DNA from: Bacillota bacterium
Lineage (GTDB): Bacteria; Bacillota; Sulfobacillia; JAJZYS01; JAJYTV01
Assembly (NCBI GenBank): GCA_021793645.1
Contig: JAJYSJ010000025.1
Location: forward strand, 1 to 35,387
Direction: 5' to 3'
Length of the DNA stretch: 35,387 nt
The notes under the pieces are model-generated. The model was not told the origin of the DNA and made no database searches. It saw only the letters and a list, made by a program, of their open reading frames with translations. The number at the start of each line of letters is the position of its first letter. The stretch's first letter is position 1. Both the position numbers and the translations under genes were made by a program. Below are positions 1,988 to 35,387 of this stretch, in pieces.

Positions 1988-3250
1988 CTAACTCGCACGG
2001 GCCGCAGCTTCGTCAAGGCGGCTGGCGTGGACGTCGAGAGCCTGCGCCAGCAGCGGCAGGTAGCGGAAGCCAGCGATGCGATAGAACCGGGGCTCGGCGC
2101 GCAGAGCTGCCACAGCCACCCAGCGCAGCGCTTGCTCGCCCTTGGTGAAGCGCGAGACGCGGCGGACGGCGGCTCGGAACTGCGAATTGGCGGCCTCGAT
2201 CGCATTGGTGGTACGCAGACCCCGGCGCAACTGCGCGGGGAGGCCAAGCTTCTGGACGGTGAGCGTCTCATCCAGGCCTTCGCGTAGGCTGGCGGCAGCA
2301 CCTGGCCACTGGACTTCGGGCTCCTTGGCGAGAGCCACAAGATCCTGTCTGGCACAGACGGCGTCGCTCTGCGCCCAGGCCGTGCTCAGCCGCAGGTTGA
2401 CCCACCCCTGCTCACGCTTCGGCAGGTGCTCCACGACATTTCTGCGCTTGTGCACTTGGCATCTCTGGACCAGGGCGTTCTCGCCGAAGACCTGCGCCAC
2501 CGCCGCCGCGATCGCCTTGGAGCCATCGATGACGAACAGCAGCCCCTGACGCGCGTGCAGGCCGCGCGCCGCTAGGTCCTCCACAGGGCGGCCGTCACCG
2601 CAGCGTTCTCGGTGGACCCCTCCCGGATGCCCAGGACGTGCTTGTGACCCGCCTCGTCCACCCCCAGCGCCACCAGGATGGCGTGAGAGCCAAGGAAGAT
2701 GGCGTCCACGTACACGACCAGCATCCGCGTCTCGATCGGGCGGCGCAGGAACTGCTGCAGCAGCTCCCCGGTTGCGCGGGCAAAGCGCACTCACCGCGCT
2801 CTTCGAATCGCCGTAGGCCTCAAGCTCTTCCGGCAGCCCGCCGTCCACTGCCCCATAGTGCCGGCAGGCCACACCGTACAGCATCCGCTCGAACGCAGCC
2901 TCATCGAGGATCTCAGCCTGTTGCAGGCCCTGATAGTTGCGCAGTTCGACCTCCTTACCGTCCCTCGTCCGCACCCGCGGCCGCTGCAACTTCACCTTGC
3001 GGCCGCCTAACACCACATACCCGCCCTGGTGCCCGTGTCGCGTTGCCTGACGATCGGTCTGGTGCTTGCCCTTAGCCCCTGCGATGGCGTCGACCTCTGC
3101 CAGCATCTGCTGCGCGATCACCATCGCGGCCTTCAGCCCTACGGCTGTCAGCCCCTCGCGCAGCGCTCCCGTCAGCTCGGCGACCTCTAGGCTGAATTCC
3201 CGTGGCAATACCCACTCCACGGACTGCTTCTTCTGGTACTCTGAACGCAA
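1988..3250 (-). pseudogene. IS256-family transposase, internally frameshifted
   Basis: The open frame is 420 codons, the usual length for an IS256 (Mutator-like) DDE transposase. N-terminal residues 1-155 and residues 222-420 are typical, with the second catalytic Asp in LLFVIDGSKA (about residue 242) and the Glu in TTNAIEAANSQFR (about 352). The middle (residues 156-221) is out of frame. The correct peptide, with the first catalytic Asp in MLVVYVDAIFLGSHA, is encoded in another frame at 2572-2790. There is a shift near 2785-2790 and a compensating loss of one base near 2582-2588. The product would therefore lack the first catalytic residue. A possible imperfect terminal inverted repeat (GGGTTCTAGTC at 1962 and its counterpart at 3280-3294) is too weak to define the ends. 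Confidence 0.88.
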
Positions 3251-12174: not shown

Positions 12175-12205
12175 AAACGCCGCCCGCTATTTGCCGGCGG
12201 CGTTT
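12175..12205 (+). terminator. second hairpin before the lytic transglycosylase gene
   Basis: Inverted repeat AAACGCCGCC / GGCGGCGTTT (10 bp, 11-base loop) between abrB and the next gene. It may be a back-up terminator or part of a leader. It covers the TTG at 12191, which argues against that codon being the start of the following gene. Confidence 0.55.
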
Positions 12206-12223
12206 CCATTTGGACATATCCTA

Positions 12224-12763
12224 GTGCTTGGCCGCATAGCCTGGCTCGTGCTGATCTATCTCTTGCCGCGACGCCCCGTGCGCTGGCCCAACCCGCGGGT
12301 GGCCAGGATGATGCAATACGTCGCTTTGTGGGCGGTCGCCATGGCCATTGCCTACGGCCTCGGCCATGGGACCGGTACGGGCATTGCGGCGGATGAGCAG
12401 CAGGCGGCTCAGCGCTATGATGTACCGGTCGCATTGGTCAAGGCGGTCGTTCAGGTAGAGAGCGGGGGCAATCCCTACGCCGCAAGCGACAAAGGCGCCC
12501 TTGGGCTGATGCAAGCGACATCCGACAAGTTTCGCCCCGGGCAAGACCCGTTTTCGCCCGCTACCAACCTCGACGTAGGGACGCGCTATCTTGCGTCGAT
12601 GCTGCGCGAGTTCCACGGCAACCTGTCACTGGCACTTGCCGCATACAACGCTGGACCAGCGGCTGTAAAGTCCTATGGAGGGGTGCCTCCATACCCGGAA
12701 ACGAAGGCGTACGTGCGCCAAGTGCTCGCGACGTACCATAGGCTCCTGGGCAAGCGGCACTAG
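12224..12763 (+). CDS. membrane-anchored lytic transglycosylase (SLT domain)
   Basis: About 179 aa from GTG 12224; later starts at ATG 12308/12311 are also possible. An N-terminal part with one or two hydrophobic segments (LVLIYLLP; YVALWAVAMAIAYGLG) is followed by an SLT/Goose-lysozyme-type domain. It has the catalytic Glu in VKAVVQVESGGNPYA, then KGALGLMQATSDKF, NLDVGTRYLASML and LALAAYNAGPAAVKSYGGVP, all in the family order. Such enzymes cleave peptidoglycan glycan strands to 1,6-anhydro products, acting outside the membrane. The stop codon shares the four bases CTAG with the stop of the opposing gene. Confidence 0.88.
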   Translation: MLGRIAWLVLIYLLPRRPVRWPNPRVARMMQYVALWAVAMAIAYGLGHGTGTGIAADEQQAAQRYDVPVALVKAVVQVESGGNPYAASDKGALGLMQATSDKFRPGQDPFSPATNLDVGTRYLASMLREFHGNLSLALAAYNAGPAAVKSYGGVPPYPETKAYVRQVLATYHRLLGKRH

Positions 12764-13407
12764 TGCAGCCGCCACAACACCACGCGATCGGTGCCCTGGA
12801 TGGTCAGGCTGGTGTTGGCGGAGAGGGTGGTTCCGTTCAGGTCGTACTGCGCTGTCAGGGTATACGAGCCGTCGGCCGGTGAATTCGTCGTCCAGGGGAC
12901 CCAAACGGCCGTTTGCCATCCTCCGCTGCCAAAGACCCATGGCGTGTCGTTGATTGCAGCGTAGTCGATCGGTCCTGTTGGGAGTGTCACTGGGGCAGTA
13001 AAGGGCGGCGGCAGTTCAAGGCGGAGCGAGGACGCGTTGCTTGGGGCGGAGAGTGTCAGCACGACGCGGTCGCCCCGGGCAACAGAGGACGGTGCTGCGG
13101 TGAGCTGCGCCCCAGTGGCGACGGGAGGGCGGAGGGATCTGACGAAGATGGTCCGGCTTGTCTGCCCCCAAAGGCCGCGGTCGTCCTCGACCGCAAGGGA
13201 CACCGTGTGCGCTCCCGTGGTGTAGAAGGCGCTGGCCCGCCCGATCCAAATCTGCACCACGATGCTGTGTCCGGGCGCCGGGTCGTAGGAGTGATCCGCA
13301 TAACCTACTGACTGCCCGACCACGACGGAGGCGGGTGCCGTGAAGCTTGCAACGGGTGGCGGGAACGAGGCGGCGGAGGCAAGTGCTGCGATCAGCGCGG
13401 CAACCAT
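12760..13407 (-). CDS. secreted PKD-like domain protein
   Basis: 215 aa from ATG 13407. A short hydrophobic N terminus (VAALIAALASAASF) looks like a signal peptide. Residues 20-95 resemble a PKD/Ig-like domain (ASVVVGQSVGYADHSYDPAPG, then TVSLAVEDDRGLWGQTS). The C-terminal half (residues 100-215) is a second beta-rich region ending in TSLTIQGTDRVVLWRLH. It is the last gene of the four-gene pilin-like operon and overlaps the previous gene by 16 bases. Probably an exported partner or tip/adhesion component of the pilus-like structure; that role is inferred from context only. Confidence 0.75.
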   Translation of the reverse strand: MVAALIAALASAASFPPPVASFTAPASVVVGQSVGYADHSYDPAPGHSIVVQIWIGRASAFYTTGAHTVSLAVEDDRGLWGQTSRTIFVRSLRPPVATGAQLTAAPSSVARGDRVVLTLSAPSNASSLRLELPPPFTAPVTLPTGPIDYAAINDTPWVFGSGGWQTAVWVPWTTNSPADGSYTLTAQYDLNGTTLSANTSLTIQGTDRVVLWRLH

Positions 13408-13823
13408 CCGATGGTCACCTCCCCACTCAAGGGGATTTCGACCCTTCCGATCAGTGCCGGCAGGGGTACGCTCACGAGGATCTGTGCGGATAGGTCGCTA
13501 CCTTGCACTGTCGGACCGCTGGTGACCTGCACCTTTAGCGGATCTAGAACCAGGCGCGTCAGCGAACTGGAGAGAACCCGCGAGGCCGCGGACCCGGCGA
13601 TGGACGGGCTGCTCGACGCAATGGAGTCCGGGACGACGTCGTGCGCCGCTGCTCTGAGCGATGCGTCGAGCGCTGCCTGTCCCACAACCCGCGCCGATTC
13701 TGCCGCCGCGAGGTCAAGAGATAGCGCGAGCGCGGCAAGCAAAACGGCGGCTAGCGCGGACGCGGCGAACACTCCCCAGACACCATCTTCAGGGGCCAAC
13801 CGGCGGCAGATCGCTCGTACCAC
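13392..13823 (-). CDS. TadE-like pilin-related protein
   Basis: 143 aa from GTG 13823, chosen because GGAGGG lies seven bases upstream. A short charged N terminus (RRLAPEDG) is followed by a single hydrophobic helix (VWGVFAASALAAVLLAALALSL) and an extracytoplasmic domain that ends in VTIGWLPR. This layout, with an acidic residue and Gly before the helix, is that of TadE/TadG pseudopilins. Third gene of the operon; it overlaps the gene before it by 35 bases and the one after it by 16. No direct family signature beyond topology. Confidence 0.68.
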   Translation of the reverse strand: MVRAICRRLAPEDGVWGVFAASALAAVLLAALALSLDLAAAESARVVGQAALDASLRAAAHDVVPDSIASSSPSIAGSAASRVLSSSLTRLVLDPLKVQVTSGPTVQGSDLSAQILVSVPLPALIGRVEIPLSGEVTIGWLPR

Positions 13824-14202
13824 AGAACGACCCTCCAAACTGCAGGGAGAGAGTTGCCGTCGGCAGCCAAAGCTGCGACGGAGCATTCACCTGGAGACAA
13901 ACCGCTTTGCCCCAGGGTTGGCCGGGTGCAGTTCCGCCGACAGTCACGGCCGTGGAGCCGGTCAAGCGGTTCAGCGTGGATGAGAGGGACGAGGCCAGGG
14001 AGGGAGTGACCCCTCCCTGGTCTTCTACGACCCGCAGCGCCTCAAACGATGCTGCACTGACGGCCGAACGCAGACCGATCGCGTGCACGGTCTCGGCGCC
14101 GCCGTAGCCTAGGAGAAGGAGGAGCGGCAGGAGCATGGCGACCGCAAGGTATGCGCTGAGGTCGCCGCACTGGCTCAGGAATTGATTGGGACGGTGAGCC
14201 AC
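13789..14202 (-). CDS. TadE-like pilin-related protein
   Basis: 137 aa from GTG 14202, overlapping the pilin-like gene by 28 bases; GGGGAG lies 11 bases upstream. N terminus SQCGDLSAYLAVAMLLPLLLLLG: the Gly-Asp-Leu-Ser-x-Tyr-Leu signature before the hydrophobic helix is shared with the pilin-like protein encoded upstream (GDLSTYLAQGIL). The outer part has two Cys (KAVCLQV and GGSFCGT), possibly a disulfide. Probably a pseudopilin of the same assembly. The longer open frame that runs to 14439 is a shadow of the pilin gene. Confidence 0.68.
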   Translation of the reverse strand: MAHRPNQFLSQCGDLSAYLAVAMLLPLLLLLGYGGAETVHAIGLRSAVSAASFEALRVVEDQGGVTPSLASSLSSTLNRLTGSTAVTVGGTAPGQPWGKAVCLQVNAPSQLWLPTATLSLQFGGSFCGTSDLPPVGP

Positions 14203-14375
14203 TGGTTTACGATCTCCCCAAGCTTTTGGCCCGCGCCGGAGAAGGCGAACATCACGGCGCCGGTGAGGGAAAGGGCCGCGAGCGCCAGGATCCCCTGGGC
14301 GAGGTAGGTCGAGAGGTCTCCGCGCTCGTCGTGCAGGACGGCGGCGATCTTGACCCGCAGGTAGGTGTACCACAT
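14175..14375 (-). CDS. Flp/TadE-like small pilin (intact copy A of a dispersed family)
   Basis: 66 aa from ATG 14375, with a strong purine-rich ribosome binding site (AGAGGGGG) inside a hairpin. Residues 1-18 are basic, then G19-D20-L-S-T-Y-L and a 25-residue hydrophobic helix (AQGILALAALSLTGAVMFAF), ending in a short hydrophilic tail. Size and layout fit Flp-type pilins, cut after Gly by a prepilin peptidase. The usual Glu at +5 of the mature protein is replaced by Tyr, so processing is uncertain. It is the first gene of a four-gene operon. The 5' two-thirds of this gene and its upstream region recur at five other places in the window, always in the same orientation, and only this copy is open. 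Confidence 0.72.
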   Translation of the reverse strand: MWYTYLRVKIAAVLHDERGDLSTYLAQGILALAALSLTGAVMFAFSGAGQKLGEIVNQWLTVPINS

Positions 14376-14385
14376 CCAATTCACC

Positions 14386-14420
14386 CCCTCTCTGCCGTCG
14401 TTCGACGACAGGAGACAGGG
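14386..14420 (-). promoter_or_regulatory. leader hairpin that includes the Shine-Dalgarno sequence (copy A)
   Basis: In coding direction CCCTGTCTCCTGTCGT pairs with ACGACGGCAGAGAGGG around a CGA loop, with two mismatches. The 3' arm carries the purine-rich ribosome binding site, so the stem would hide it. The same structure with different, compensating bases occurs at 17344-17363, 18801-18833 and 22615-22650. Confidence 0.7.
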
Positions 14421-14436
14421 TTCTGCGGGTGAATGC

Positions 14437-14476
14437 CATATCCTACCAACAAGCGTTCCGAGCAACAGTTCTTTGG
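14437..14476 (-). promoter_or_regulatory. conserved upstream box (copy A)
   Basis: A 40-base block conserved in four copies. In coding direction its core is AAGAACT ... GGAACG-CTTGTTGG-TAGGATATG. It lies about 60 bases before the ATG and just upstream of the hairpin, as expected for a promoter. The elements do not match sigma-A well, so the responsible sigma factor is unclear. Confidence 0.55.
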
Positions 14477-14625
14477 GTGCTTCGCGTTTTTGTTGGCGCT
14501 GACAATTGCGGGAGGCAGTGGTGAGCCTGCACATGCGGAGTGGTCGTTACATGCTCGGTGCCGTGCTCAGCCCGATGGGATGATTGGGCGACTGCCGAAC
14601 TGGAGCGCCATGCTGACGTGAGGTG

Positions 14626-14778
14626 GTGCTCGTGCCGGGACAGGTGTCTATTCGGAAAGTGCGACTACCGGATGACGGCAGCGCTCTGGAGCAACTGGAC
14701 ACCTCTTTTGCGACCGATGTCATCAGTCATGTCGCAGCCGATCCCACAGGCTTCGAACCGAAGAGCGCAAGTTCATGA
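14626..14778 (+). pseudogene. GNAT acetyltransferase, N-terminal remnant
   Basis: 50 codons from GTG 14626 encode VSIRKVRLPDDGSALEQLDT and then SFATDVISHVAADPTGF before a TGA. This matches the start of the intact acetyltransferase at 23236 (ITIREVRLPEDIEALRRIDT, SFETDVILRVAAVPTGF) over about 40 residues. The acetyl-CoA-binding domain is entirely missing. It is the truncated end of a paralogous gene. Confidence 0.8.
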
Positions 14779-14888
14779 ACGCGGTAACGCTGACAGAAGT
14801 CCGCCATCGCTTCCATTCGAATGGGAACTTTCACATTCCCCGTGCGCTGCACCTACTCCGCTACGCTTGAGCGACAGCGCCCTGCGGC

Positions 14889-16055
14889 TCACTGCCGATG
14901 GCGCAGCACCGCGCATAGTCCGCCTGCGACGAGTGTCAGGCCACCCGCAAGCAGCAAGAAGGCCAGCGCGACCCCTTGCTGCGGTCCGGCGACCGCGGCT
15001 AATACTGGGAACACGACCATCATCGCGGCCATCTGCAGTGTATTGACGGCAGACAGTGCGGTCGCGCGGTGATCGGCGGGTGCTAGCTCCAGGAGCGTGG
15101 TGTCGACCAGCACGCTTGCGGTACCGCTGGCGAATCGCCCCGCGATGATGCCTCCGATGCCCGCGGTGGCGGCGAGAGCGCGACCCGGCTGGGCGAAGGA
15201 CCGGCCGAACGCAGAGATCGGGTAGAGCCAGACCACGCGCGCAGCGCCCGGGTGCGGGATGCGCTGGAGATGCGGCCGGAAAGCAGAGAACCAAGCCACG
15301 AAGCGCCGCCAGCAGCCGCGAATGCCAATGAGATTGCCATCGGAGACAGCCCGATGCGCTGCAAGAGTGCCTGAGTGTACTCGCTGCCGACTGACGCGAA
15401 TGTCCATAGCGGGACGATCAATGCGGCGAGGCGCCAGAAGGCGGGCTGCGCCGACCCAAGGGTGGCGAGCAGTCGGGGCACGGAAGCAAACCACGGGGTA
15501 TTGTGGGGGGCCGCCGCGCGGTGCGACCGCAGGGTGGGAAGGGAAAGCGCGAGAGCGGCCGCAAGCAGCCCGCCGAGGGCATCCAGCTGATAGAGCAGGG
15601 AGAAGGAGACCGTTACAAGAAGTCCGCCCATCAGGCCTGCGCCTAGCAAGGCGAGCGCTTGCATGCTCATATAGCCTGACATGCGGCGCTGCAAGCTGTC
15701 TGGATCGTTCGCTTGCCCAAAGCGTTCCGACAGGCTTTGCACGTAGGAGAGTTCGACGCCCGATGGCAATGTGAGTGCGAGGGCGGTCACCGCGAATCCT
15801 GCGACCACGAAGCCGAAGCCACTGCCTGCGACTGGGAAGAGCACTGCGGCGGCCATCTTTAGGAGACTGCCCAGCACCAGGATCAGCCGCTGCTCGAAAC
15901 GATCCGAGAGAAGACGGGATGTCGAAGACGAACAGAACCGCCTGCATAACGGCATAGCCGAGGCCTCCAGGGCCCAAGCCCAAGATTCGGTGTTGGCGCA
16001 CCCGTCGACGCGCAGGTGCGTGCCAGAAGGGGAGCGAAGGAAACCAAAGCCCCAA
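14889..16055 (-). pseudogene. MFS transporter, frameshifted twice
   Basis: The gene starts in one frame with ALGLWFPSLPFWH and LGYAVMQAVLFVFDIPS. It shifts near 15925 into a second frame (RLLSDRFEQRLILVLGSLLK, through many hydrophobic helices to GGASWLGSLLSGRI) and returns near 15255-15270 to the first (AARVVWLYPISAFGRSF, then GIGGIIAGRFASG). Together this gives about 390 residues with some twelve membrane helices, and the loop DRFEQR is the typical MFS A-motif region. No substrate can be predicted. Its 5' end faces the hydrolase gene at 16117 across a short shared intergenic region. Two indels break it, unless they are sequence errors. Confidence 0.85.
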
Positions 16056-16116
16056 CGCCGTCGCCAGATTATCAGAGACTAATATTGGTGGGGGTAAGGC
16101 TACGCACAGCGCATCG

Positions 16117-16875
16117 GTGACCGATGCCGGAGCTAAGATCCGGTGGGTCGAGCTACCCGGCGGTAATCCGGCACGGGTGTACTTACACGGCCTCGGAGCA
16201 ATGTCGGCCGCTTACTACGCGGCAGTAGCGCCCGATCCGCGCCTAGGAGGACATCGATCTCTGCTTGTTGATCTCCTGGGCTTTGGGCTCAGTGACCGCC
16301 CTGCCGATTTCGATTACACGCTCGACGGCCATGCCGAGGCCCTCTCGCGGGCGCTTCGAACTGCAGCGGTGGTCGGGGCCGAAGTGGTCGCCCATAGCAT
16401 GGGCGGTGCCGTCGCTATCGTACTTGCCGCCCGGTACCCCGAATTGGTTTCCAAGCTGGTGCTGGTCGATGCCAACCTCGATCCATATGTCCCCAAACGG
16501 ATGCCAGGCAGCAGCGGGATCGCAACCTACACTGAGGCGGAGTTCCTCGAAGGTGGTTGGGACGAGACCCGCGATCGGGTCGGTGAGCACTGGTGGTCCA
16601 CTATGCGCCTAGCAGGCAGTAAGGCGATCTACCGTAGCGCCGTCCACCTGGCCCACGGCACCACGCCGACGATGCGCCAGCAACTGCTGGCCTTAACCAT
16701 CCCGCGGACCTTCCTATTTCCGGAGACGGACGGCGCGCCCCTTGGTGCCGACGAGCTGCGCGCGGCTGGTGTGGAACTCGTCGCCATACCCGAGAGCGGG
16801 CATAACATCATGCTCGACAACCCCGAGTTGTTCGTCTGCGCTACTGCTGCGGCGTTCGCCCGATCCGGCTCATGA
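16117..16875 (+). CDS. alpha/beta hydrolase
   Basis: 252 aa from GTG 16117. It is a typical alpha/beta-hydrolase of the esterase/haloperoxidase type. Seen: oxyanion-hole HGLGAMSAAYYA near residue 25, the loop LLGFGLSDRPADFDYTLDGH, nucleophile elbow VVAHSMGGAVAIVLAARYPE near residue 90, an acid in LFPETDGAPLG, and the catalytic His in IPESGHNIMLDNPELF. Length is normal and the gene is intact. Substrate unknown. It stands alone between the MFS pseudogene and repeat copy B. Confidence 0.9.
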   Translation: MTDAGAKIRWVELPGGNPARVYLHGLGAMSAAYYAAVAPDPRLGGHRSLLVDLLGFGLSDRPADFDYTLDGHAEALSRALRTAAVVGAEVVAHSMGGAVAIVLAARYPELVSKLVLVDANLDPYVPKRMPGSSGIATYTEAEFLEGGWDETRDRVGEHWWSTMRLAGSKAIYRSAVHLAHGTTPTMRQQLLALTIPRTFLFPETDGAPLGADELRAAGVELVAIPESGHNIMLDNPELFVCATAAAFARSGS

Positions 16876-17228
16876 ACGAAGGCGACGACTACTAGCTAGA
16901 GTCTGGTACCGTCGTTGTCGAAGGGAGATCCTGGAGCGCCGTGATCGACGATCTGGAGTAATACTGGACATCTTGTTCAGGATCGGCTGCGGATGTAGGG
17001 CGATACTGGGTCAAGGCGGGCTTCGACTGCATCGTGGGCGTGTACGGCTACAAGCCACAGGCCCGGGACACGTTCACTGACCTGGCGCTCGAGAGGTCCT
17101 TGCCCCAACTCTGATAGCATCCCGGATCGCGGCGGCCCTTGGCGTGGCGTGTCTTCGCCAAAGCCGCCCATACGTTTCGGGACCGGATTGAAAACTTTAG
17201 TGACTGCCGAGCCGGTTACATTACGTTA
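16876..17228. other. gene-free stretch with a possible coding remnant
   Basis: On the plus strand around 16988-17116 a frame without start encodes ADVGRYWVKAGFDCIVGVYG and ends ...LERSLPQL before a stop. Composition looks coding-like but I do not recognise it. No other feature seen. Confidence 0.35.
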
Positions 17229-17375
17229 GAGCGGCGAGCGCCAGGATGCCCTGGGCGAGGTAGGTCGAGAGGTCGCCGCGCTCGTCGTGCAAGGACGGCG
17301 GCGATGCCGGTGCGCAGGTAGCTGTACCACATTCGATCACCCCCTCTGTCGTTCGACGACAGGAGACAGGGTTCT
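17229..17375 (-). repeat. repeat unit, copy B (truncated at both ends, frameshifted)
   Basis: Matches copy A from the leader hairpin (left arm TGTCGT, right arm ACGACA) through the ATG (MWYSYLR) to the codons for LALAAL. An extra T in the run before the HDERG codons (CTTGCAC for CTGCAC) shifts the frame. The upstream box and the last part of the unit are missing. Confidence 0.85.
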
Positions 17376-17806
17376 TTGCATTAAGGAGAACGAGGATGCT
17401 ACGCCTCAAGCCTGTCAGCGCGGGTAATTGGACCTCCGTTTTGCTCCTCCATCGCGCGCATCTGAGCTGGTCCGCTGGCTGATCTCACGGGTGGGCAGGG
17501 AACGGCGGGCCGGTCGCGCATCGCATCCCTGGCTGCCGCATGGTGGAGATTGTCGGAGCTTTTCACCTGCTCCCACTACGCAGCCCCGACGTTATCGCAC
17601 AGGCGATCACCGAGCACCTGAACCGGTGATGTAGTTGCGACGCTGCGATGGCGGACTTGTGGGCTCCATGCGGCACCGCTCCTTCGTTCTCCTCGTTGCT
17701 CCAGAGGGCATGAGGGAACAGACCTCCAACCCTGCACCGATGGTGTGACGACCCCATGGCGGGAGATCTGATCGTTGCACGGCCTCGGAGGGGATGGGCG
17801 TCGTCT
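17376..17806. other. gene-free stretch
   Basis: Lies between repeat copy B and the PIN toxin gene. A short plus-strand frame beginning with ATG at about 17540 encodes MVEIVGAFHLLPLRSPDVIA and stops soon after. It may be a gene fragment, but nothing identifies it. Confidence 0.35.
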
Positions 17807-18238
17807 TTAACGATTCAATACCGATACGTACTGCTCGGCGCCATAGGCCAGGATCCGTTCGTCATGGGTCACAATGCTAAGGTCATGAAGGCGTGCGCTT
17901 GCCGCGAGGATGCGATCCGCCGGGTCTCCGTGAAACTTCCCTGGCAGCCGACTGCTTGCCACGGAGATTTCCGGAGAGAGGGGCAGCAGAAGCACGCCAG
18001 GAGCATCCAGCGCTTGTCGCACCCAGTCCAAGCAGTCTCTGGAGAGCCGGATGCGACCTTTGCTCTCGAGCATGGCAACTTCCCAAACGGAAATTGCCGA
18101 GACGTACACCCGGCCGTGGGCCGCTGCCTGTTCAATGGCATGAATGGTTTGCGTATCAAGTCTGTCATCGTTGCCATTCATCAACCAGATCCAGATGTGG
18201 GTATCGAGAAGAAGCCTCGACGTGCCTTCACTCGCCAT
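17807..18238 (-). CDS. PIN-domain toxin (VapC-like)
   Basis: 143 aa from ATG 18238, which lies 11 bases inside the antitoxin gene. It is a PIN-domain ribonuclease of the Sll0205-like group. The first acidic residue is in LLLDTHIWIWLMNG near residue 12, the second site is VSAISVWEVAMLESKGRI, and GDPADRILAASARLHDLSIVTHDERI provides the C-terminal acidic cluster. Such toxins cut RNA and are held inactive by the antitoxin encoded upstream. The open frame extends further upstream, but the overlap fits the ATG. Confidence 0.92.
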   Translation of the reverse strand: MASEGTSRLLLDTHIWIWLMNGNDDRLDTQTIHAIEQAAAHGRVYVSAISVWEVAMLESKGRIRLSRDCLDWVRQALDAPGVLLLPLSPEISVASSRLPGKFHGDPADRILAASARLHDLSIVTHDERILAYGAEQYVSVLNR

Positions 18239-18464
18239 CGGCGTCAGCGTCCCATCGCTCACCGACCGGAAGTGTGATATCGCCGACAATGGTCACCGAT
18301 CCCCTAAGATACCCCAGTAGACCATCGAGCGCATCCTCCTCGAGAGGGACGAGTTTTGCCACCGGCTTGCCACGCTTTGTGACGATGATCTCAGAACGCT
18401 TCTCCTTGACCATGTTAATCAACTGAAGACAACGGGCCTTAAACTGCCCAGCAGGTATGTCCAT
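18228..18464 (-). CDS. Phd/YefM-type antitoxin
   Basis: 78 aa from ATG 18464, with GGAGG upstream. Residues 1-50 match the Phd/YefM fold (IPAGQFKARCLQLINMVKEK, then EIIVTKRGKPVAKLVPLEED), a DNA-binding antitoxin that represses its own operon. The C-terminal part (GSVTIVGDITLPVGERWD) should wrap the toxin. It overlaps and precedes the PIN toxin gene, the usual order. Confidence 0.92.
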   Translation of the reverse strand: MDIPAGQFKARCLQLINMVKEKRSEIIVTKRGKPVAKLVPLEEDALDGLLGYLRGSVTIVGDITLPVGERWDADADGE

Positions 18465-18636
18465 GATCCTTTTCCTCCAGTCATGGTCATTAGTATGTGA
18501 CTATTATGGCTTGGAGGGCCTAGTGAAGCAAGGGTGGGCGCTAATGTGGGCCCCCGCGCAGGACGGTCCCTCCTGGAAGCTCCACCAAAGCGCTAGACCC
18601 AGTGCCACGTGTGGTTAGTGTGAAAATATCCGGTCC

Positions 18637-18890
18637 CTTTTGGCCCGCGCCGGAGAAGGCGAACATCACGGCGCCGGTGAGGGAAAGGGCCGCGAGTGCC
18701 AGGATTCCTTTGGCTAGATAGGTCGAGAGGACTCCGCGCTCGTCGTGGAGCATGGCGGCGAGTTTGACGCGCGCAGATAGGTGTACCACATGCGATTCAC
18801 CTCCCTCTGTCGCCTTGGTGCGACGAGAAGGAGTTCGCTCGCGTAAATCCATATCCTCCCAACAGGTGTTCCAGACCAGTAGTTCTTTGG
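18637..18890 (-). repeat. repeat unit, copy C (full length, pilin frame broken)
   Basis: 254 bp with all parts of the unit: upstream box (18850-18890), leader hairpin (18801-18833), ATG with MWYTYL, and the coding part to CAAAAG. Two extra bases after the seventh codon (CTGCGCGCGTC where copy A has CTGCGGGTC) shift the frame, so the initiator ATG no longer reads the pilin. The second half (GVLSTYLAKGILALAAL) is still open in the other frame. Sequence after CAAAAG is unrelated to copy A. Confidence 0.85.
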
Positions 18891-19180
18891 AGCCTACGGC
18901 GGAGACTCGAGGCTCAGTTGTGCGGCAGGTGGGCGACTGGTGCTGCCTTAGGTCGGTGATGCATAGGCGCTGTCACCCGGTGGTCGCGCGGGTCAGCGCG
19001 CCGAAAACTCGCTTGAGGGGCTCGTCGAAGAAGCGAGGTGGCCCGTTCGGGGATCGCCCCAACCTCTCCTCGTACTGCCCAACGGCTCGCTTTGAGCGCG
19101 TCCCCCCGGGACGACAAGGGCCGCCGGCTTCGGGCCCGGCAGCCGTTGTGCGTCATCAGGAAAGAAAGCGCAACCTTCGT
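18891..19180. other. gene-free stretch
   Basis: GC-rich sequence between repeat copy C and the VOC gene. I see no coding region with a start signal, no tRNA and no strong hairpin that I could assign. Confidence 0.4.
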
Positions 19181-19528
19181 TCAGCCCACCGTGCCGTCGG
19201 TGCGCCGGTGGAGCATGATGAGGTTTCCGAAGGGATCCCGAATGCCAGCAATATCGCAGGGCTCATGGCCCAAGATCGGCTCGATGGCAGGCTCGATGCC
19301 CTTCACCCGAAGCTCCCTGACGGCGGCCTCGACATCCTCCACGGCTAGCCCGATGCGAATCTCACACTGCGGCTCTCCCTGTGGTGGCAGGAATGGTGCG
19401 CTGTCGAGCCCTATCGTGAGTGAGCCCGCCTGGTACTCGACCCAGTCCTCATTCGCGATTCCCTCCTTGGGCAGTCCCAGAACTCCGCCGTAAAACGCTT
19501 CCGCCTCGGCCATCCGGCCCTCGGGCAC
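19181..19528 (-). CDS. VOC (glyoxalase/bleomycin-resistance) protein, 5' end probably missing
   Basis: 115 aa from the GTG at 19528. The C-terminal 100 residues are a VOC fold: MAEAEAFYGGVLGLPKEG, then IRIGLAVEDVEAAVRELRVKG and AGIRDPFGNLIMLHRR with the metal-binding Glu position replaced or shifted. The first strand (GCSIGSVCVPEGRMAEAEAF) continues in frame upstream of 19528 without any start codon until it meets the TniQ gene on the other strand. The gene has probably lost its true start at a rearrangement junction near 19530-19545. Confidence 0.75.
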   Translation of the reverse strand: MPEGRMAEAEAFYGGVLGLPKEGIANEDWVEYQAGSLTIGLDSAPFLPPQGEPQCEIRIGLAVEDVEAAVRELRVKGIEPAIEPILGHEPCDIAGIRDPFGNLIMLHRRTDGTVG

Positions 19529-19554
19529 GCAGACGGAGCCGATACTACAGCCTC

Positions 19555-20424
19555 GTGCCTGCCGGAGTCGGAACGTCAGACGTCGAGAGCCTTACGAGCT
19601 ACACCGTCCGCTTGGCCGAGAGGCATGGTGTGAGCTTGCGCACCGTGATGGCGGAAGTGTTGACCGATGTGCACCCTGCATTCAGGACTCTCGATGGCCC
19701 AAAGCCGTGGTCGCACATGTTCGCAACGGCGCTGGAAGCGGACACCGCGAGGGACGATCTCCGCTACCTCACTCTAGGGTACTGGGCAGAAGTGGCCGCC
19801 TACAACGGCACAGCCCCAGCCCTGAAGGAACAGCAGGCGTACTGTCCCCTTTGCCTTGAGGAGATGCGCCGCTTGGGAGGACCCGTCTACGCTCCGCTCC
19901 TGTGGTCTCTTGTCTGGGTGCGGTCGTGCCCAAAGCATGGGATCAGTCTCCAACGCGGGTGCCCGCACTGCTCCCTAAGCTTCGGGTACCACGAGTACTG
20001 GCGAGCGATCGGGTACTGCAACAACTGCGGGAAATGGCTGGGCCAGTCGGACCCGCGAGGGATGCCTCGCCCGATCTTCACAAAGCGCGATCTCTGGGAC
20101 CTCGCGCAGATGGAGCACATTGTGCGGATTGCCCCAGACGTGCCGCATCGGCCGCAATCGACGCCATCGCTGTGGCGAGGCCTAAAAGAGCAGTACCTTC
20201 AGGAATGGGGGAAGAGGCATAGATTCGCAAAGCGCCTGGCGGCGGCAAGCGGCGTAGAAGCGCGGGATGCCGTATCCTACTGGCTGAGCCGGGGCGCGAG
20301 GCCGTCGATGCAAAGGCTACTCGACATCTCCTACGGGATGAAGGAACCTCTGCTCGGCCTGCTAGCTCCCGACTATGACCCTCGGGCGCTAGAGTACCTC
20401 ACGCGAATTGCCGTTAACGTCTGA
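19555..20424 (+). CDS. TniQ/TnsD-family protein, orphan and possibly 5'-truncated
   Basis: 289 aa if the GTG at 19555 is used. Family similarity already begins a few codons earlier (RSRYYSLVPAGVGTSDVESL), where no start codon is available; the open frame continues upstream only as antisense of the VOC gene. The TniQ domain is clear: SLTSYTVRLAERHGVSLRTV, then two zinc-binding pairs (YCPLCLEEM and SCPKHG with RGCPHC) and a third CxxC (GYCNNCGKWLG). A C-terminal helical part follows (residues 215-289). TniQ proteins choose target sites for Tn7-like elements. No TnsA, TnsB or TnsC gene is present in the window. Confidence 0.85.
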   Translation: MPAGVGTSDVESLTSYTVRLAERHGVSLRTVMAEVLTDVHPAFRTLDGPKPWSHMFATALEADTARDDLRYLTLGYWAEVAAYNGTAPALKEQQAYCPLCLEEMRRLGGPVYAPLLWSLVWVRSCPKHGISLQRGCPHCSLSFGYHEYWRAIGYCNNCGKWLGQSDPRGMPRPIFTKRDLWDLAQMEHIVRIAPDVPHRPQSTPSLWRGLKEQYLQEWGKRHRFAKRLAAASGVEARDAVSYWLSRGARPSMQRLLDISYGMKEPLLGLLAPDYDPRALEYLTRIAVNV

Positions 20425-20445
20425 GTAGGAAGGAGGCCTCGTGCC

Positions 20446-20583
20446 GTGAATATCACGGACGAGATACGGAAGGCCCTTACTGATAGGCGAGAGCCGCTGC
20501 CGGACGGTGCCAACCTGGAGGCACACCCCGCAGCGGCTCGTCGCTTGTTTCAGGATATCTTGATACCGTTTGGCCCTCGGTGA
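20446..20583 (+). CDS. small ORF after tniQ
   Basis: 45 aa from GTG 20446, with AGGAAGGAGG upstream and only about 20 bases after the tniQ stop. Sequence starts VNITDEIRKALTDRREPLPD. It may be a real small partner gene or the 5' stub of a larger transposon gene. Its end overlaps the opposing membrane-protein gene by 34 bases. Family not recognised. Confidence 0.4.
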   Translation: MNITDEIRKALTDRREPLPDGANLEAHPAAARRLFQDILIPFGPR

Positions 20584-21275
20584 GATTCTTGGCCAAGAGG
20601 GGGTAACTCTGCAATCTGAGCAACCTCATAACACGCCGCCATGACCGAGAGGCTGAGCGATCCTGCGAAGGTTAAGACATCATCGGACGCTGAGGCAGAT
20701 CGGAATTGAGACAGTGTATCCAAAAACGATAATAGAATCGCGTATTGCGGGTGTAGAGAAGGGAAACGATCGTAGATAGGGCGGTAGATGTCCCAAGTCC
20801 GCGACAAATCCGCTCGCAACGAACCTAAGAGGGGAATAAACGGAGCGGAGGGGGTGGACGTGTGCGGGCTTGGACCGTATTGTCGGAGCGCTAACGCTGC
20901 TTCATTCCAGAGACCTGAGTTGTGTGCTTCGGAGGCGCCTGCGTCCTGAAGAATGGTTGGACCGATAAGCACTCGGGCGAGTTGCCAGGCTTTATTCCAT
21001 AACTCAAACACTGCTCGTTGAACGTCTCTTTGATGTTTACGCAACCAAACTGTTGTCTCTATGGTTTCGTGGTTTTGTTCTTGAAACCACCAAAGAATGC
21101 TACCAAGGCCAATAGTCCCCCAAAAGGTCGTTGCTATGCTCCAACGATTCATTGGCGATAGAACGAAAGCCACAACAGCCACTCCAAGGACAACCATCGA
21201 CATTACCAAGGGGAAGGCGCGGCTGCTCAGCACGCGCCCTCTCAGGTTCGATCTGTTGGGAGTTCGCCTATTCAT
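20550..21275 (-). CDS. two-helix membrane protein of unknown function
   Basis: 241 aa from ATG 21275 (MNRRTPNRSNLRG), preceded by GAGGTGAT at a good distance; the frame upstream of this is not supported. Two adjacent hydrophobic segments lie near residues 20-58 (FPLVMSMVVLGVAVVAFVL and ATTFWGTIGLGSILWWF). The rest is a mainly helical soluble domain (ETIETTVWLRKHQRDVQRAV, then LLSFLDTLSQFRSASASDDV). No family recognised. AT content is higher than in the core genes, as in the next gene, which suggests a different origin. Confidence 0.7.
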   Translation of the reverse strand: MNRRTPNRSNLRGRVLSSRAFPLVMSMVVLGVAVVAFVLSPMNRWSIATTFWGTIGLGSILWWFQEQNHETIETTVWLRKHQRDVQRAVFELWNKAWQLARVLIGPTILQDAGASEAHNSGLWNEAALALRQYGPSPHTSTPSAPFIPLLGSLRADLSRTWDIYRPIYDRFPSLHPQYAILLSFLDTLSQFRSASASDDVLTFAGSLSLSVMAACYEVAQIAELPPLGQESHRGPNGIKIS

Positions 21276-21378
21276 GAGATCACCTCGCACGGCGCCAGAT
21301 CGCCGTCGTAGAACGCGGGCATCTGCGTGAGTACGTCTCTGCCGACGGCGGTGGTAGATGGCGAGGCAACCGCCGCTA

Positions 21379-22287
21379 TCACTGGGCAGTACACATCCTG
21401 ATGTGCGGCGCGGTGGTCGATTCTTGTAGCAAACCGAACGGCAATCCGTGCCTACCAAACCACGCAATCATATCTCCCCAACTCTGGGAGAGAGGAAAGT
21501 GTCCCCCTGGCTCAAAGCTAAAGGCAACGCTCTTTCCATCATGACTACGCAGGACGTCGTACGACATCTCCTCTATACCAGGCGGAAACACGGTATCTTG
21601 TCTGCCGGCGAGGAAGAGCACTGGTAAGTCCACCCGAAACTTCGTTCCCCATAAAGTATTTAGTCCTGGACTTATCAGCACTGCCGCTCGAATATCTGAG
21701 GCGCGCTCGGCCATATATATGGCAACAGCCCCGCCCATGGATCCGCCCAGGAGATATGTTTCATCAGCCTTCACATGGAGACCGCAAATCTGTTGTAACG
21801 CGCTCAAGCCATTTAGGGCATCGAGGGCGTTCTGGCGGGGGGTGCTGACAGCGCCTCCGCTGGGACCGTATCCGGCGAAGTTCGGCAGTACAACGATCAT
21901 TTTGTAGGAAGCCCATTGTGCTGCGAGTGGCAGCGTGGCGGAGGTTAGCACACCCTGCACTCGGTTGACGTGATGGAGTGGCATGGCTCCCATCCAGCCG
22001 CCGTGCAGGAACACGAGAATCGGAAACGGTCCTTTCCCTGAGGGAATGTCTAGGTACTCTTGGATCAGATGGCCGCGGCTCCAGTACTTGAGGCTGTAAA
22101 TGTTGAGGCCAGGAACTCCGTAGGCGGACTGGGACAGGGTAGTCATGGACGCGAGACGACCGTTAGGCCCGACTGAGTGCGGAGAGGCCTCTGAGGGGGC
22201 CGTATTCGCGGAGCAGCCACCAAGCAGGCCCGCCAACAGAAGAGACACACCAATAAGCGTCGCCTTGTTCTTTTCGAGTGCAAACAT
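21379..22287 (-). CDS. lipoprotein alpha/beta hydrolase
   Basis: 302 aa from ATG 22287. An N-terminal lipoprotein signal ends in LLLAGLLGGCSAN, so the protein should be anchored to the outer face of the membrane through Cys25. The body is an alpha/beta hydrolase of the prolyl-oligopeptidase/dienelactone type: oxyanion-hole FLHGGWMGAM, nucleophile YLLGGSMGGAVAIYMAERA, acid in LFLAGRQDTVFPPG and the His in EPGGHFPLSQSW. All three catalytic residues are present. Substrate unknown. Codon use is less GC-rich than in the housekeeping cluster, a possible sign of transfer. Confidence 0.88.
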   Translation of the reverse strand: MFALEKNKATLIGVSLLLAGLLGGCSANTAPSEASPHSVGPNGRLASMTTLSQSAYGVPGLNIYSLKYWSRGHLIQEYLDIPSGKGPFPILVFLHGGWMGAMPLHHVNRVQGVLTSATLPLAAQWASYKMIVVLPNFAGYGPSGGAVSTPRQNALDALNGLSALQQICGLHVKADETYLLGGSMGGAVAIYMAERASDIRAAVLISPGLNTLWGTKFRVDLPVLFLAGRQDTVFPPGIEEMSYDVLRSHDGKSVAFSFEPGGHFPLSQSWGDMIAWFGRHGLPFGLLQESTTAPHIRMCTAQ

Positions 22288-22380
22288 TCAATTCCATCTC
22301 TTTTGCCGAGGATGCCGGCCCGATGCTTAAGTTTAAGTCAGGCGGATCGTATTTGCCACTCTGATGCATCACTGCACTAA

Positions 22381-22398
22381 ATCCCCTGAACAGGGGAT
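22381..22398. other. short perfect hairpin
   Basis: ATCCCCTG-AA-CAGGGGAT, an 8-bp inverted repeat with a two-base spacer, located between the lipoprotein gene's upstream region and repeat copy D. It could be a small operator or part of a terminator. No T-run. Confidence 0.45.
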
Positions 22399-22560
22399 GT
22401 CGGTGACCTCTGAGGAAAGAGATCTAGCGGTGCGGATTTGCAGCCTGATCCAGAGGCTTGGGAAGCATTGCGTTTCGTCCGCGGGGAGATGCGAAAAGGC
22501 GCACCCAAACCCGTGGGAAGCATAATGTGTCGTTGCCGCCAATCCTTCTGACAAATGACA

Positions 22561-22708
22561 CGTGGAGTATTCCGGCGAGCTTGATGCGCAGGAACGTGTA
22601 CCACATTCGGACTTCCCCTCTTCTCGTCGCCTTGGCGACAAGAAGAGGGGTTCAAGCGCATGTTGGCATATCCCACCAACAAATGTTCCGGAGCAATAGT
22701 TCTTTTGA
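22561..22708 (-). repeat. repeat unit, copy D (5' half only)
   Basis: Contains the upstream box (22667-22708), the best leader hairpin of the family (22615-22650; 17 pairs, loop of two) and the first 15 codons (MWYTFLRIKLAGILH). Homology stops at CTCCACG. Read as RNA in coding direction, every base of the stem pairs (one G-U); on the other strand the same position is an A-C mismatch, so the structure is made for this strand. Confidence 0.85.
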
Positions 22709-23235
22709 GGATGCCCTCTAAGGAGCAGCCAACGGCACTACTGACCGGGCGGGACGACGCTTGGCGTCGGACTGCAGGCCAGCGGGGCCATCGGGTTTCT
22801 TGCTCGTACCCCTCCGTCGCGAGCAGGAGACCGTGGCTGACGGGCCGGCAAGATGGGGCAGCAACCGCTTGACGCGGAAGCGGTCTTGGCCCTCCTCTGC
22901 GCATGCCTGGCGTCCACCCAGCCACTGCGATGCTATCTTTGTGGCAGGATAAGGTAATCCGTGCCGCAATGCGAGGTGAGGCCATGCGTCTGATTGTCGC
23001 CAACAGGGAGATGGAGCGGCTCTCGGTGCGCGACGCGCTGTCGACAGCGCGTCGGGCGCTTGTGCTAGGCGATCCGGGAACGCACCGGGTACATCGGGGC
23101 GTTCGATGGTCATCTGGAGCGGACGTGGACAACATCCGGCGCGTGGCCGAATGGGACCTCCAGGCCGATGGGACCAGAGGATCGAGCTTGTGAGTCTTCT
23201 CGCCTTAGACCCTGGATTGCTGCAGGGAGGTCGGG
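22709..23235. other. stretch without a confident gene
   Basis: About 520 bases upstream of the acetyltransferase gene. A plus-strand frame at about 22903-23193 includes MRLIVANREMERLSVRDALS and is possibly coding, but has no family I recognise and no clear ribosome binding site. It may be a decayed gene. Confidence 0.35.
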
Positions 23236-23772
23236 ATGTTGGAGCAACGGATCACCATCCGGGAGGTGCGCCTGCCGGAGGACATCGAGGCTCTGCGGCG
23301 GATCGACACCTCGTTCGAAACCGATGTCATCCTGCGTGTAGCGGCCGTACCGACAGGCTTTCTCGTCGAACCGACGAAGACCGCCACCCTCGCGAAGGCG
23401 TTCCCGCCTGACGAATGGTTCGCCGAAGATCGGCTCTGGGAAGCTGGATGGGTCGCCATCGCCGACGGGCGTATCATTGGGTTCGCGGCGACGCGCTACG
23501 AGTCGTGGAACCGGCGCCTCGCGGTATGGCACCTTTACGTCGACAAGGCCGCGCGGCGCAGAGGCATCGGGCGTTCGCTTCTCGAAACGGCGCTGGCGCA
23601 CGGGCGCAGGCAGGGTGCGCGCTCCCTTGAGGTGTCGAACGTCAACGCGCCAGCGGTCCGGGCGTACGAGGCCCGAAAGTTCACTCTTGCGGGACTCGAC
23701 CTCTCCCTCTACCACCACACGCTAGCGAGCGGCGAGGTGGCGCACTTCATGGCGCGGCCGCTCAATGGGTGA
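23236..23772 (+). CDS. GNAT-family N-acetyltransferase
   Basis: 178 aa from ATG 23236, with GGGAGG upstream. A full GNAT domain is visible: strand 4 LAVWHLYVDKAARRRGIGRSLL with the acetyl-CoA-binding R-R-G-I-G loop, the following helix ETALAHGRRQG and the late SLEVSNVNAPAVRAYEARKF. Substrate unknown. A truncated paralogue of its first 40 residues lies at 14626-14778. Confidence 0.92.
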   Translation: MLEQRITIREVRLPEDIEALRRIDTSFETDVILRVAAVPTGFLVEPTKTATLAKAFPPDEWFAEDRLWEAGWVAIADGRIIGFAATRYESWNRRLAVWHLYVDKAARRRGIGRSLLETALAHGRRQGARSLEVSNVNAPAVRAYEARKFTLAGLDLSLYHHTLASGEVAHFMARPLNG

Positions 23773-24132
23773 CACGCGTCGGGACGGACAACCAGTGGGC
23801 GCCCGCTTTGCCGGATGACGGCCAGTTCCGCCCTGCGTGGGATGGATGTCTCCAGGTTTCCGGCCGAGTTCTGAGAAACGGACTTCTGGAACAATGTGCT
23901 AGGCCCCGAACATGTCGCATACTTGCCGGATCAGCTGGCGAGGCGAATTAGCTTTGGGGGACGAGCGGAAGGCGAAGGCCAAGTGCCCCGGTCGGCCCGG
24001 CGCACGAGACGATTTTCGTTCGTGACCCATACGCCTTGAGCGTAAGCCCTGTGCGTGACCCCTCCAAGAGGCCGCGAGCTAAAGCCGACCCAGTACGCTA
24101 CTCGCAAGAATGCTGAGGCTAGATCGGTATCA
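23773..24132. other. gene-free stretch
   Basis: Between the acetyltransferase and the MazF-type toxin gene. Short frames only, none with a ribosome binding site or motif; no structured element recognised. Confidence 0.4.
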
Positions 24133-24706: not shown

Positions 24707-24887
24707 GCTCACCCCTCCTCATACTGTGCCCCCTACCAGCAATCATACGCTGAGGGTGTAGCAGTGTGAAGCGTCGAGACGAACGAACCCCTTCTACAAA
24801 CCTTGTCAACATCGGCCGAAGGGGTGGCGCACCAACCCGAAGGGGGCGATCGGCCGGCTTATGATCCGACGAACGCCTTCATCGTCC

Positions 24888-24927
24888 CATATCCTACCAA
24901 CAAGTGTTCCCGGCCACAAGTTCTTGG
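24888..24927 (-). repeat. repeat unit, copy F (upstream box only)
   Basis: A lone copy of the 40-base upstream box, with the core GGAACACTTGTTGGTAGG in coding direction. No hairpin and no pilin coding sequence follow. The sequence beyond is unrelated. Confidence 0.8.
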
Positions 24928-25178
24928 CGTCAGTGGAGCAGAGGTCTGGTTTAGCGTCGCCGAGGGGAAAAGCACCAGGGGAACCACGGGGTCGTGCTCC
25001 AGTCTTCCGCCTCCGAGGGAGCCCGGCTGAAGAAGAGGATCTGGACTACCTGGGGCCCCCGCTGGACGTTCCGGCCCCGCCGCCGGAGGCCGCTCCGGAG
25101 GGGATGCCACAGAATGCGATTGGGGGCGCGTGCTGGAGTGGGATCTCCCGACCCGGCTTGTGCTGGCGTGCCAGATAG

Positions 25179-25869: not shown

Positions 25870-26180
25870 GGGCGTGGCTCCTTGCGCCAAATTGTATCTA
25901 AAAGATAACAAGTGAACATGCCTTTGGTCAATAATTTGTCAGGTATTAGGTGTCGGCCTCTCACGGGTCTCACGGGTGACTGCCGTCGCGCTGCGGTGAT
26001 TGGCCCGACCCGCACGGACTCAATCAGAGGTTCGCCTTGTAGCAGCGCCGAAGTGCGCGGCCTCTACGCTGAGTTCCTCTTCGTTCCGGAGCCCGATGTA
26101 TAAGTTGACGCGGTCGTGGCGTTGCATATCCGCGGGGGAGAGGTCACCGCACCAGCGGTTAGTGGTTCCGTATCATCCAC
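25870..26180. other. gene-free stretch
   Basis: AT-richer promoter region of the acetyltransferase, then GC-rich sequence up to repeat copy E. No coding sequence recognised. Confidence 0.4.
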
Positions 26181-26294
26181 CTTTTGCCTAGCGCCGCTGA
26201 AGGCGAACATCACGGCGCCGGTGAGGGAGAGCGCCGCGAGTGCCAGGATTCCCTGGGCGAAGTAGGCCGAGAGGTCGCCGCGCTCGTCGTGCAG
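26181..26294 (-). repeat. repeat unit, copy E (3' half only)
   Basis: In coding direction it begins at CTGCACGACGAGCGCGG, exactly where copy D stops, and runs to CAAAAG, where copy C also ends. It encodes HDERGDLSAYFAQGILALAA and TGAVMFAFSGA but has no start. Copies D and E are therefore complementary halves of one unit, with about 6-7 shared bases at the break. Confidence 0.85.
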
Positions 26295-26459
26295 TGTGAG
26301 TCTACCGACAACGATGCAATGGACGGAAGAGATGCTGGCGCAGACCCATGGCTAAAAGGCATCACGTGCCCCCTGACCTTAGCATCCATCGCGTGGACAG
26401 GACCGTACGTAGCTTCCACGGCCGGGCCGGCGTGCGGCGCCTGCCGAAAGCGTACGGCC

Positions 26460-34853: not shown

Positions 34854-35315
34854 TTGCCGGACATGACGATTCGCCTTCGCGATCGCAGGACGCTCGGCTA
34901 CGCAAAGTGGGGAGATCCTGCGGGACCGCCTGTCTTGGTATGCCACGGTGTTCCCGGTTCGCGCCACCTCGGCCGGACACTCGAAGTCCCTGCACGCCTG
35001 ATCGTGCCCGACAGGCCCGGGTATGGCCTATCCGACCCGAAACCCGGTCGGAGCGTGTCCGGTTGGGCTGAGGACGCTCTGGAACTGGTCGATCATCTTG
35101 GGCTGAGCCGCTTTCACACCTTCGGAATTTCCGGGGGGGCGCCCTACGTCTGTGCCGTTTGCGCCGCACTCGGGGCCCGGGTTCAGCAAAGCGCCATCTT
35201 CAGCGGCATCGGACCACTCTACCTGCCGCACGCCCTGGAGGGTATGGACCCGGTTCAGGCCTACGCATTACCCACATCCGCGCTGTCAGGGGTTAACAGT
35301 TTAAGCAGCGTTTAG
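34854..35315 (+). CDS. alpha/beta hydrolase, C-terminally truncated
   Basis: 153 aa from TTG 34854 with GGAGGG six bases upstream (an ATG three codons later is an alternative). The N-terminal half is a standard alpha/beta hydrolase: RRTLGYAKWGDPAG, oxyanion-hole CHGVPGSRHLG, the DRPGYGLSDP loop and nucleophile elbow FGISGGAPYVCAVCA. The family usually has 260-290 residues. Here the protein ends after about half the fold (ALSGVNSLSSV), without the acid and His. The sequence from about 35290 onward is more AT-rich and unlike the gene, which suggests that an insertion or rearrangement cut it. Confidence 0.75.
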   Translation: MPDMTIRLRDRRTLGYAKWGDPAGPPVLVCHGVPGSRHLGRTLEVPARLIVPDRPGYGLSDPKPGRSVSGWAEDALELVDHLGLSRFHTFGISGGAPYVCAVCAALGARVQQSAIFSGIGPLYLPHALEGMDPVQAYALPTSALSGVNSLSSV

Positions 35316-35387
35316 GAGCAAGGAGTTTCCAATTAGCCTGTCGAAGGGAGGATGCAGGGAGGGGTCCGCGATCAACGATTTGACATG

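Follow-up and report, generated by a model that had tools for sequence, protein, structure and literature searches.

Genes of Tad pili and of conjugation machines have been found together on plasmids. For pL15, pY0017 and the Kr1 plasmid region of Sulfobacillus thermotolerans, the accessible passages of the report place MinD-like, TadA, TadB/TadC, VirB4, TrsL, relaxase and TraG genes together (PMC6803676), and on a linear plasmid of Cutibacterium acnes the authors leave it open, in the part of their paper available, whether tad and conjugation genes are functionally linked (PMC5696575). A chromosomal hybrid of this kind was not recognisable in the titles and abstract openings surveyed, a body of literature that leaves out preprints and most subscription papers. 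The locus treated here lies on a contig of 35,387 nucleotides (JAJYSJ010000025.1, contig C18 of genome G000, assembly GCA_021793645.1) from a bacterium of the Bacillota class Sulfobacillia (order JAJZYS01), and this one whole contig is the window in what follows. On its minus strand it carries a small operon for an Flp-like pilin and three further proteins (p2, p3, p4), and this operon is very probably the filament half of a dedicated chromosomal Tad-VirB hybrid machine, a degree of confidence that covers the machine and not its function. As a pilin operon it is ordinary; the interest is in that filament half, conserved with its hybrid in Bacillota in which no ComEC was detected. One conserved chromosomal locus thereby links Tad pili with conjugation cores, two different families of machines, and the case also illustrates how half of a machine, cut off where a contig stops, may be mistaken for an orphan pilus operon.

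The operon and the machine genes

What is observed, and underlies the machine reading, is that the genes are present, that they are conserved and keep their order, and that in a sister family they are contiguous. The comparison covers the family of the window (f1, 10 genomes), the sister family f3 (G011, G012 and G013) and G014 (f4), within an order of 15 genomes. All three f3 genomes have one same-strand run with VirB6, VirB4, TadA, TadC, pilin, p2 and p4, extended by PrgI and p3 where profiles were used, in G011 and G012; G013 was compared by tblastn only, and in f3 the p3 profile matches weakly (E 1e-5 to 1e-3). The f3 order on the minus strand is VirB6 - PrgI - VirB4 - SAF - TadZ candidate - TadA - TadB candidate - TadC - pilin - p2 - p3 - p4 - abrB, where the TadZ and TadB candidates are assigned by position and abrB was placed beside p4 by eye, and in G013 metG lies beyond VirB6. 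In G014 TadA, TadC, pilin, p2 and p3 are contiguous. Two f1 genomes, G002 and G008, have machine and pilin on one contig, and the G002 interval runs from the SLT gene over the operon, about 15 kb of variable sequence and conserved genes to the machine and metG; in f1 the run of filament and machine genes is split by an insertion hotspot.

In the genome of the window the machine lies on another contig, C82. The window ends within an alpha/beta hydrolase gene (34854..35315, plus strand, N-terminal part), the remainder of which opens C82: residues 1-138 are encoded at the end of C18 and residues 133-283 at the start of C82. By this match C82, which bears the machine, apparently continues the cut gene, and the pilin and TadC would then be separated by at least about 25-26 kb, of which about 20 kb reach to the end of the window and 5 kb belong to C82. 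The sequence-only reading had seen no ATPase nearby, which holds within the window and fails beyond it, the window being one whole contig; the conclusion that the operon has no machinery of its own has to be given up, given the dedicated machine on C82 and its contiguity with the operon in f3. Both contig ends (window 34854-35387 and C82:1-583) also have short sequence that does not align to the G002 hydrolase, and the gap may thus contain an inserted repeat.

The four overlapping genes themselves, at 12760-14375, were read correctly from the outset: the order pilin, p2, p3, p4 is shared by eight f1 loci, the window and seven relatives (p4 of G003 is truncated at a contig end), and dN/dS was 0.06-0.31 across the operon genes in the estimates obtained (NG86 for all 14 gene pairs, YN00 for 10 of the 14), which indicates purifying selection. 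The pilin has 66 amino acids (14178..14375, stop codon 14175-14177), and its homologues were found by profile in 13 of the 15 order genomes, including 11 of the 11 good ones. By tblastn it was matched in 8/10 family genomes; the two genomes in which it was missed are G001 and G009 (82% and 76% complete), and the named contigs that match are eight, from seven metagenome-assembled genomes, all of uncultured Bacillota. Identity of the related loci to the window copy is 80-85% for the pilin and 52-75% for p2. For the p2 gene (TadE-like; 13789..14202 and 137 amino acids with the start proposed here), the frame in the window lacks any ATG, GTG or TTG codon from the pilin stop to the p2 motif. The pilin residues Q58 and W59 are invariant in all eight pilins, so that the overlapping codon is always ATG or GTG in the homologues and is therefore taken as the p2 start; the putative GTG at 14200-14202 would make pilin and p2 overlap by 28 bases. 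The gene for p3 (143 amino acids, GTG start, 13392..13823) encodes a small membrane protein that has a single hydrophobic stretch at its N-terminus (EDGVWGV), and p4 (215 amino acids, 12760..13407) is an exported PKD/Ig-like protein and a candidate tip protein. Past p4, convergent with the operon, lies a gene for an SLT lytic transglycosylase (12191..12763, plus strand; PF01464, E 3.1e-24), which has an equivalent position in six other f1 loci.

Pilin and p2 indeed share GDLS-x-YL (RGDLSTYL and CGDLSAYL) and lack Glu at +5, as had been noticed before, and the other Flp of the same genome has Glu before Tyr (EGQGMVEYALI, L018:10796-10984). The pilin has no Pfam match, PF04964 included; p2 reaches 19.5 bits with TadE at a cut-off of 22.9; p3 matches nothing in Pfam and is TadE/G-like by eye; and p4 matches PKD weakly, with 14.3 bits at a cut-off of 23.5. 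There is no NCBIfam family for p2, p3, p4 or the VirB6-like and PrgI-like proteins, and no match in PHROGs for any of the four operon proteins, and pilin and p2 profiles found nothing meaningful among the PDB sequences. In the model of p2 (predicted local distance difference test, pLDDT, 84.8), a long helix spans residues 2-54 at the N-terminus and is accompanied by another helix and three strands; Foldseek gave no match in the PDB under E 0.001, and the VIA list, with a best Z of 7.9, consists mostly of unrelated enzymes.

The VirB-type parts are recognised to different degrees. VirB4 has the VirB4-like 4ag5 as its best PDB match (E 4.2e-21), and its nearest NCBIfam is the CD1110 conjugation family (124 bits, below the cut-off of 325). 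VirB6 of G011 exceeds the curated cut-off of TrbL_4 (37.1 vs 27 bits), and the f1 copy alone has no Pfam match; the sole PDB sequence match of VirB6 is TrwI/VirB6 (E 0.0097), and TrwI/VirB6 also provides the top four chains in the fold search (Z 11.0 vs 8.5 for the next fold). SAF remains slightly below its cut-off of 21 in G002 and G011 (19.0 and 18.7 bits), and CpaB was assigned from profile or position evidence only, as the CpaB query gave many low-complexity tblastn matches. Across the phylum sample, VirB4 profile matches occur in 66 of 398 genomes, those at E under 1e-200 in four members of the order only, with the next match at 2.3e-27. The whole hybrid gene set, together with an M23 peptidase, is present in G018, which belongs to another, distant class, and there SAF (45.8 bits), RcpC (43.8), TraG P-loop, T2SSE and TadE all exceed their cut-offs. 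G172 and G339, of the same class as the window, have VirB6 - VirB4 - SAF-like - TadZ-like genes (SAF and TadZ by eye). In G339 an open reading frame of a group II intron-type reverse transcriptase was seen by eye in the VirB-Tad region (L148:5413-6726), and beyond it TadA on the opposite strand. G192, G334, G051 and G266 were rejected as hybrids: they have VirB4, some also VirB6, but no TadA in the 15-20 kb covered, and were classed as ordinary conjugation loci.

Pilus machinery is present in the genome in more than one copy, as Tad genes were found on both C28 and C82. C28 has a canonical Tad locus with an Flp over the Pfam cut-off, TadE, TadE/G, CpaB, TadZ, TadA, TadB and TadC (CpaB and TadZ identified by eye). 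C82 has the second TadA (T2SSE over cut-off) and TadC (T2SSF over cut-off) of the genome, and a TadB copy that is under the cut-off and was assigned by homology. TadA of the C82 type occurs in all ten family genomes and forms a clade (10/10 f1 genomes, three of f3, one of f4; support 100/99) apart from the C28 type, in a tree with long-branch warnings of which only this split is used; that the operon belongs to a distinct Tad-type branch has therefore stood up. Close homologues of the C28 TadA occur in at least 8/10 family genomes, and G004 has fragments. A third, more distant TadA was observed on C79 (L020, 7973-13893) with its own VirB4 and a CpaE/response-regulator-like open reading frame, perhaps on a plasmid or integrative element.

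Possible functions and rival explanations

The machine would join a Tad (type IVc) assembly core, consisting of SAF/CpaB-like, TadZ-like, TadA, TadB-like and TadC proteins with the Flp-like pilin and the TadE-like p2, to a conjugation-type inner-membrane core of a VirB6/TrbL-like channel, a PrgI/VirB3-like protein and a VirB4-like ATPase. Pilin and p2 would be cut at the glycine of GDLS by the A24 prepilin peptidase, for which there is a single match in the genome (C74:100630), outside the machine locus; for this enzyme, and for nothing else, the earlier idea that the operon uses a system encoded elsewhere holds. TadA with TadB/TadC would build and retract the pilus, in which p2, p3 and p4 would be minor components or sit at the tip. 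The SLT enzyme would open the cell wall, and VirB4 and VirB6 would carry across the membrane a substrate that is most probably DNA.

ComEC (PF03772) was undetected in all 15 order genomes, which is unusual for bacteria; a control detected it in 10 of 14 known genomes. Among 12 further genomes it is present in ten, namely in eight of the same class without a VirB4 match and in G018 and G065 with a VirB4 match, and undetected in G172 and G339. This pattern agrees with ComEC having been replaced within the class, but a single loss may explain it as well, and G018 and G065, which hold both ComEC and VirB4, indicate that the two can coexist. As no ComEC was detected in the order and neither a relaxase nor a coupling gene was noticed between abrB and metG, chromosomal DNA uptake is favoured by analogy as the likeliest single function, tentatively and well short of being probable. 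That an order of Bacillota known from metagenome-assembled genomes and lacking ComEC imports DNA through a domesticated conjugation core (VirB4, VirB6) in a Tad pilus operon is, as a full proposal, rather doubtful. The locus makes it possible to examine directly whether, in bacteria, a conjugation core can stand in for ComEC.

Other substrates have to be weighed against DNA uptake. The machine may deliver proteins, or may build only an adhesive, retractable pilus, with the VirB part handling pilin or effectors and not DNA: a Tad-like apparatus serves contact-dependent killing in Myxococcus, according to the available parts of two reports (PMC8460266, PMC12075869), Patescibacteria keep mostly relaxase-less chromosomal type IV secretion systems (T4SS), as far as the accessible text goes (PMC12102498), and p4 is an exported PKD-like candidate for a tip. 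No effector candidate was noticed in the locus, however, and this explanation is possible without being likely. A fixed integrative element that exports DNA by conjugation, with relaxase and coupling protein encoded elsewhere, would agree with the combination of Tad genes, VirB4, relaxase and TraG in the plasmid loci of S. thermotolerans (PMC6803676, in the passages available), with the comparable gene order on the Alicyclobacillus plasmid pAACI01 and with a VirB4 that is nearest to a conjugation family, though below its cut-off. It is nevertheless unlikely, considering the order-wide position between housekeeping genes and that by eye no relaxase or coupling gene was noticed between abrB and metG in f3 and f1, an interval outside which no genome-wide search was made. 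The operon could also supply alternative or minor pilins to the canonical pilus of C28, the C82 machine then serving something else. The genome does have that complete Tad locus, and its TadA is widespread in the family, but the pilin operon is contiguous with the machine TadC in f3 and f4 and C28 has Flp and TadE-type genes of its own, which makes this very improbable; an orphan operon serving the C28 pilus was set aside after the synteny of f3 and f4.

Several points weigh against the hybrid machine and the function ascribed to it. The join of C18 and C82 is made by synteny, with no read spanning it. The operon of G010 lies beside abrB, and no machine gene was confirmed in C100:5001-37000 (32 kb of a contig of 41,024); a VirB6 match by tblastn in that genome (L103:76-586) was dropped, since profiles did not confirm it on L103 and the overlapping L156. 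In G014 the open reading frame upstream of TadA is helicase-like by eye, and the VirB half is not adjacent. The VirB half is thus shown close to the filament genes for f3 and on one contig with them for G002 and G008, a placement that does not extend to f2 and f4. The model of VirB6 is poor (pLDDT 60.8, predicted template modelling score 0.47), and PrgI/VirB3 reached 16.0, 20.7 and 17.0 bits at a cut-off of 27, with no match for the G011 copy, so that its identity is suggestive. The function, finally, is argued from correlation and analogy only.

Pilin stubs and the insertion hotspot

The region upstream of the operon contains, on the same strand, features that the sequence-only reading had not recorded: three larger stubs of the pilin gene, a further one of 15 codons and a leader that stands alone. 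The intact pilin gene is preceded by a conserved leader (14376..14476, minus strand) with a hairpin that overlaps the ribosome-binding site. In an alignment of 14376-14430 with 12 related copies (A8), the hairpin has 10 consensus pairs, two of them with compensatory changes, and a covariation term of only -0.51. A conserved block AAAGAACT..TTGGTAGGATATGG was seen upstream and is perhaps the promoter or an operator. The partial copies, all on the minus strand, are a frameshifted one with part of the leader at 17214..17375, which ends at codon 35 in the junction motif CTAACGTAATGTAACC, one with leader at 18613..18889, which ends at about codon 51 in junction A (also in G003), a leader with about 15 pilin codons at 22561..22706, a lone copy of the leader repeat at 24887..24927, and a stub without leader at 26172..26316. 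Stubs occur also in G002, G003, G004 and G006, and the stub regions recorded are window 14436-26316, L041:8214-10369 and L043:5881-9340; G008 showed no stubs and has about 1.1 kb between pilin and tldD.

G006 and G004 come near to an empty and a filled site: they share about 96% identity over the 1.1 kb leading to pilin codon 35, after which G006 continues with an intact pilin and G004 with CTAACATGATGTGACC, a PIN-toxin cassette, a new leader and then an intact pilin. The pattern CTAACNNNNTGTRACC has seven occurrences in 10 genomes and one in the reversed control, and in all seven it follows a pilin stub at the same base (codon 35), the stub in G004:C219 being only about 11-14 bases long. As about four hits would be expected from composition by estimate, weight is put on the shared place and not on the number. 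The motif precedes at least four unrelated cargoes that share it and little else. The arrangement resembles site-specific insertion into the pilin gene, in which every insert would supply a new promoter, leader and N-terminus, although homologous exchange between old stubs may be an alternative, and no recombinase for cassette insertion was identified. The pilin gene appears to be a target of repeated insertion of small cassettes, several of which carry toxin-antitoxin genes. Silent pilin cassettes for antigenic variation were rejected, since what the upstream copies retain is the constant leader and N-terminus, and their 3' end is missing. Junction B was also rejected as an integron attC site, the consensus of which is GTTRRRY, because the motif does not fit. 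By eye, the hotspot contains an RHH-MazF pair (24150-24700), an antitoxin-PIN pair (17807-18464) and a TniQ-like open reading frame (19420-20424), and an IS256-like transposase open reading frame lies near the start of the window (1988-3250).

Comparison with described systems

The S. thermotolerans plasmids resemble the machine in that MinD-like, CpaF/TadA-like, TadB/TadC-like, VirB4-like, TrsL-like and lytic transglycosylase genes are grouped, but these loci are plasmid-borne and have a relaxase and a TraG coupling protein, and the available passages do not mention a pilin operon (PMC6803676). On pAACI01 of Alicyclobacillus acidocaldarius (NC_013206.1), VirB4-like (DUF87), SLT, SAF and T2SS/T4P/T4SS ATPase genes are similarly on one strand, but this too is a plasmid, the other parts of which are annotated as hypothetical; its VirB4 has about 25% identity to the C79 VirB4 over 79% of the latter. 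The C. acnes linear plasmid shares with the machine a tad locus beside VirB4 and other conjugation genes, but belongs to the Actinobacteria, as the accessible part of that paper has it (PMC5696575). By analogy, such plasmid hybrid conjugation loci are the likely source of the machine. The canonical Tad/Flp pilus of C28 has the CpaB, TadZ, TadA, TadB, TadC, Flp and TadE-type parts in common with it, but, as read, shows neither VirB4 nor VirB6, and in its Flp a Glu precedes the Tyr, whereas the operon pilin has G-D-L-S-x-Y.

Among further systems, the passages available of one paper do not describe VirB4 with Tad (PMC6668835), and in another the terms CpaF, TadA, TadE and Flp are absent, and hybrid assemblies involving type IV pili are touched on in a single general phrase (PMC12857230). 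The T4SS of Patescibacteria, according to the accessible text, is likewise a chromosomal VirB4 system of the monoderm type and mostly without relaxase, but the word Tad never occurs there (PMC12102498). By analogy the closest logic is that of archaeal DNA import by Ced/Ted with Ups pili, where a chromosomal VirB4-like ATPase and a VirB6-like channel work with a pilus; Ups and Ced are separate systems, for which the part of the source available names no Tad genes (PMC9905601), and the CedB profile matches here very weakly (14.6 bits). If DNA uptake through the Tad-VirB hybrid were true, the locus would be a bacterial, one-locus counterpart of the archaeal Ups plus Ced pair.

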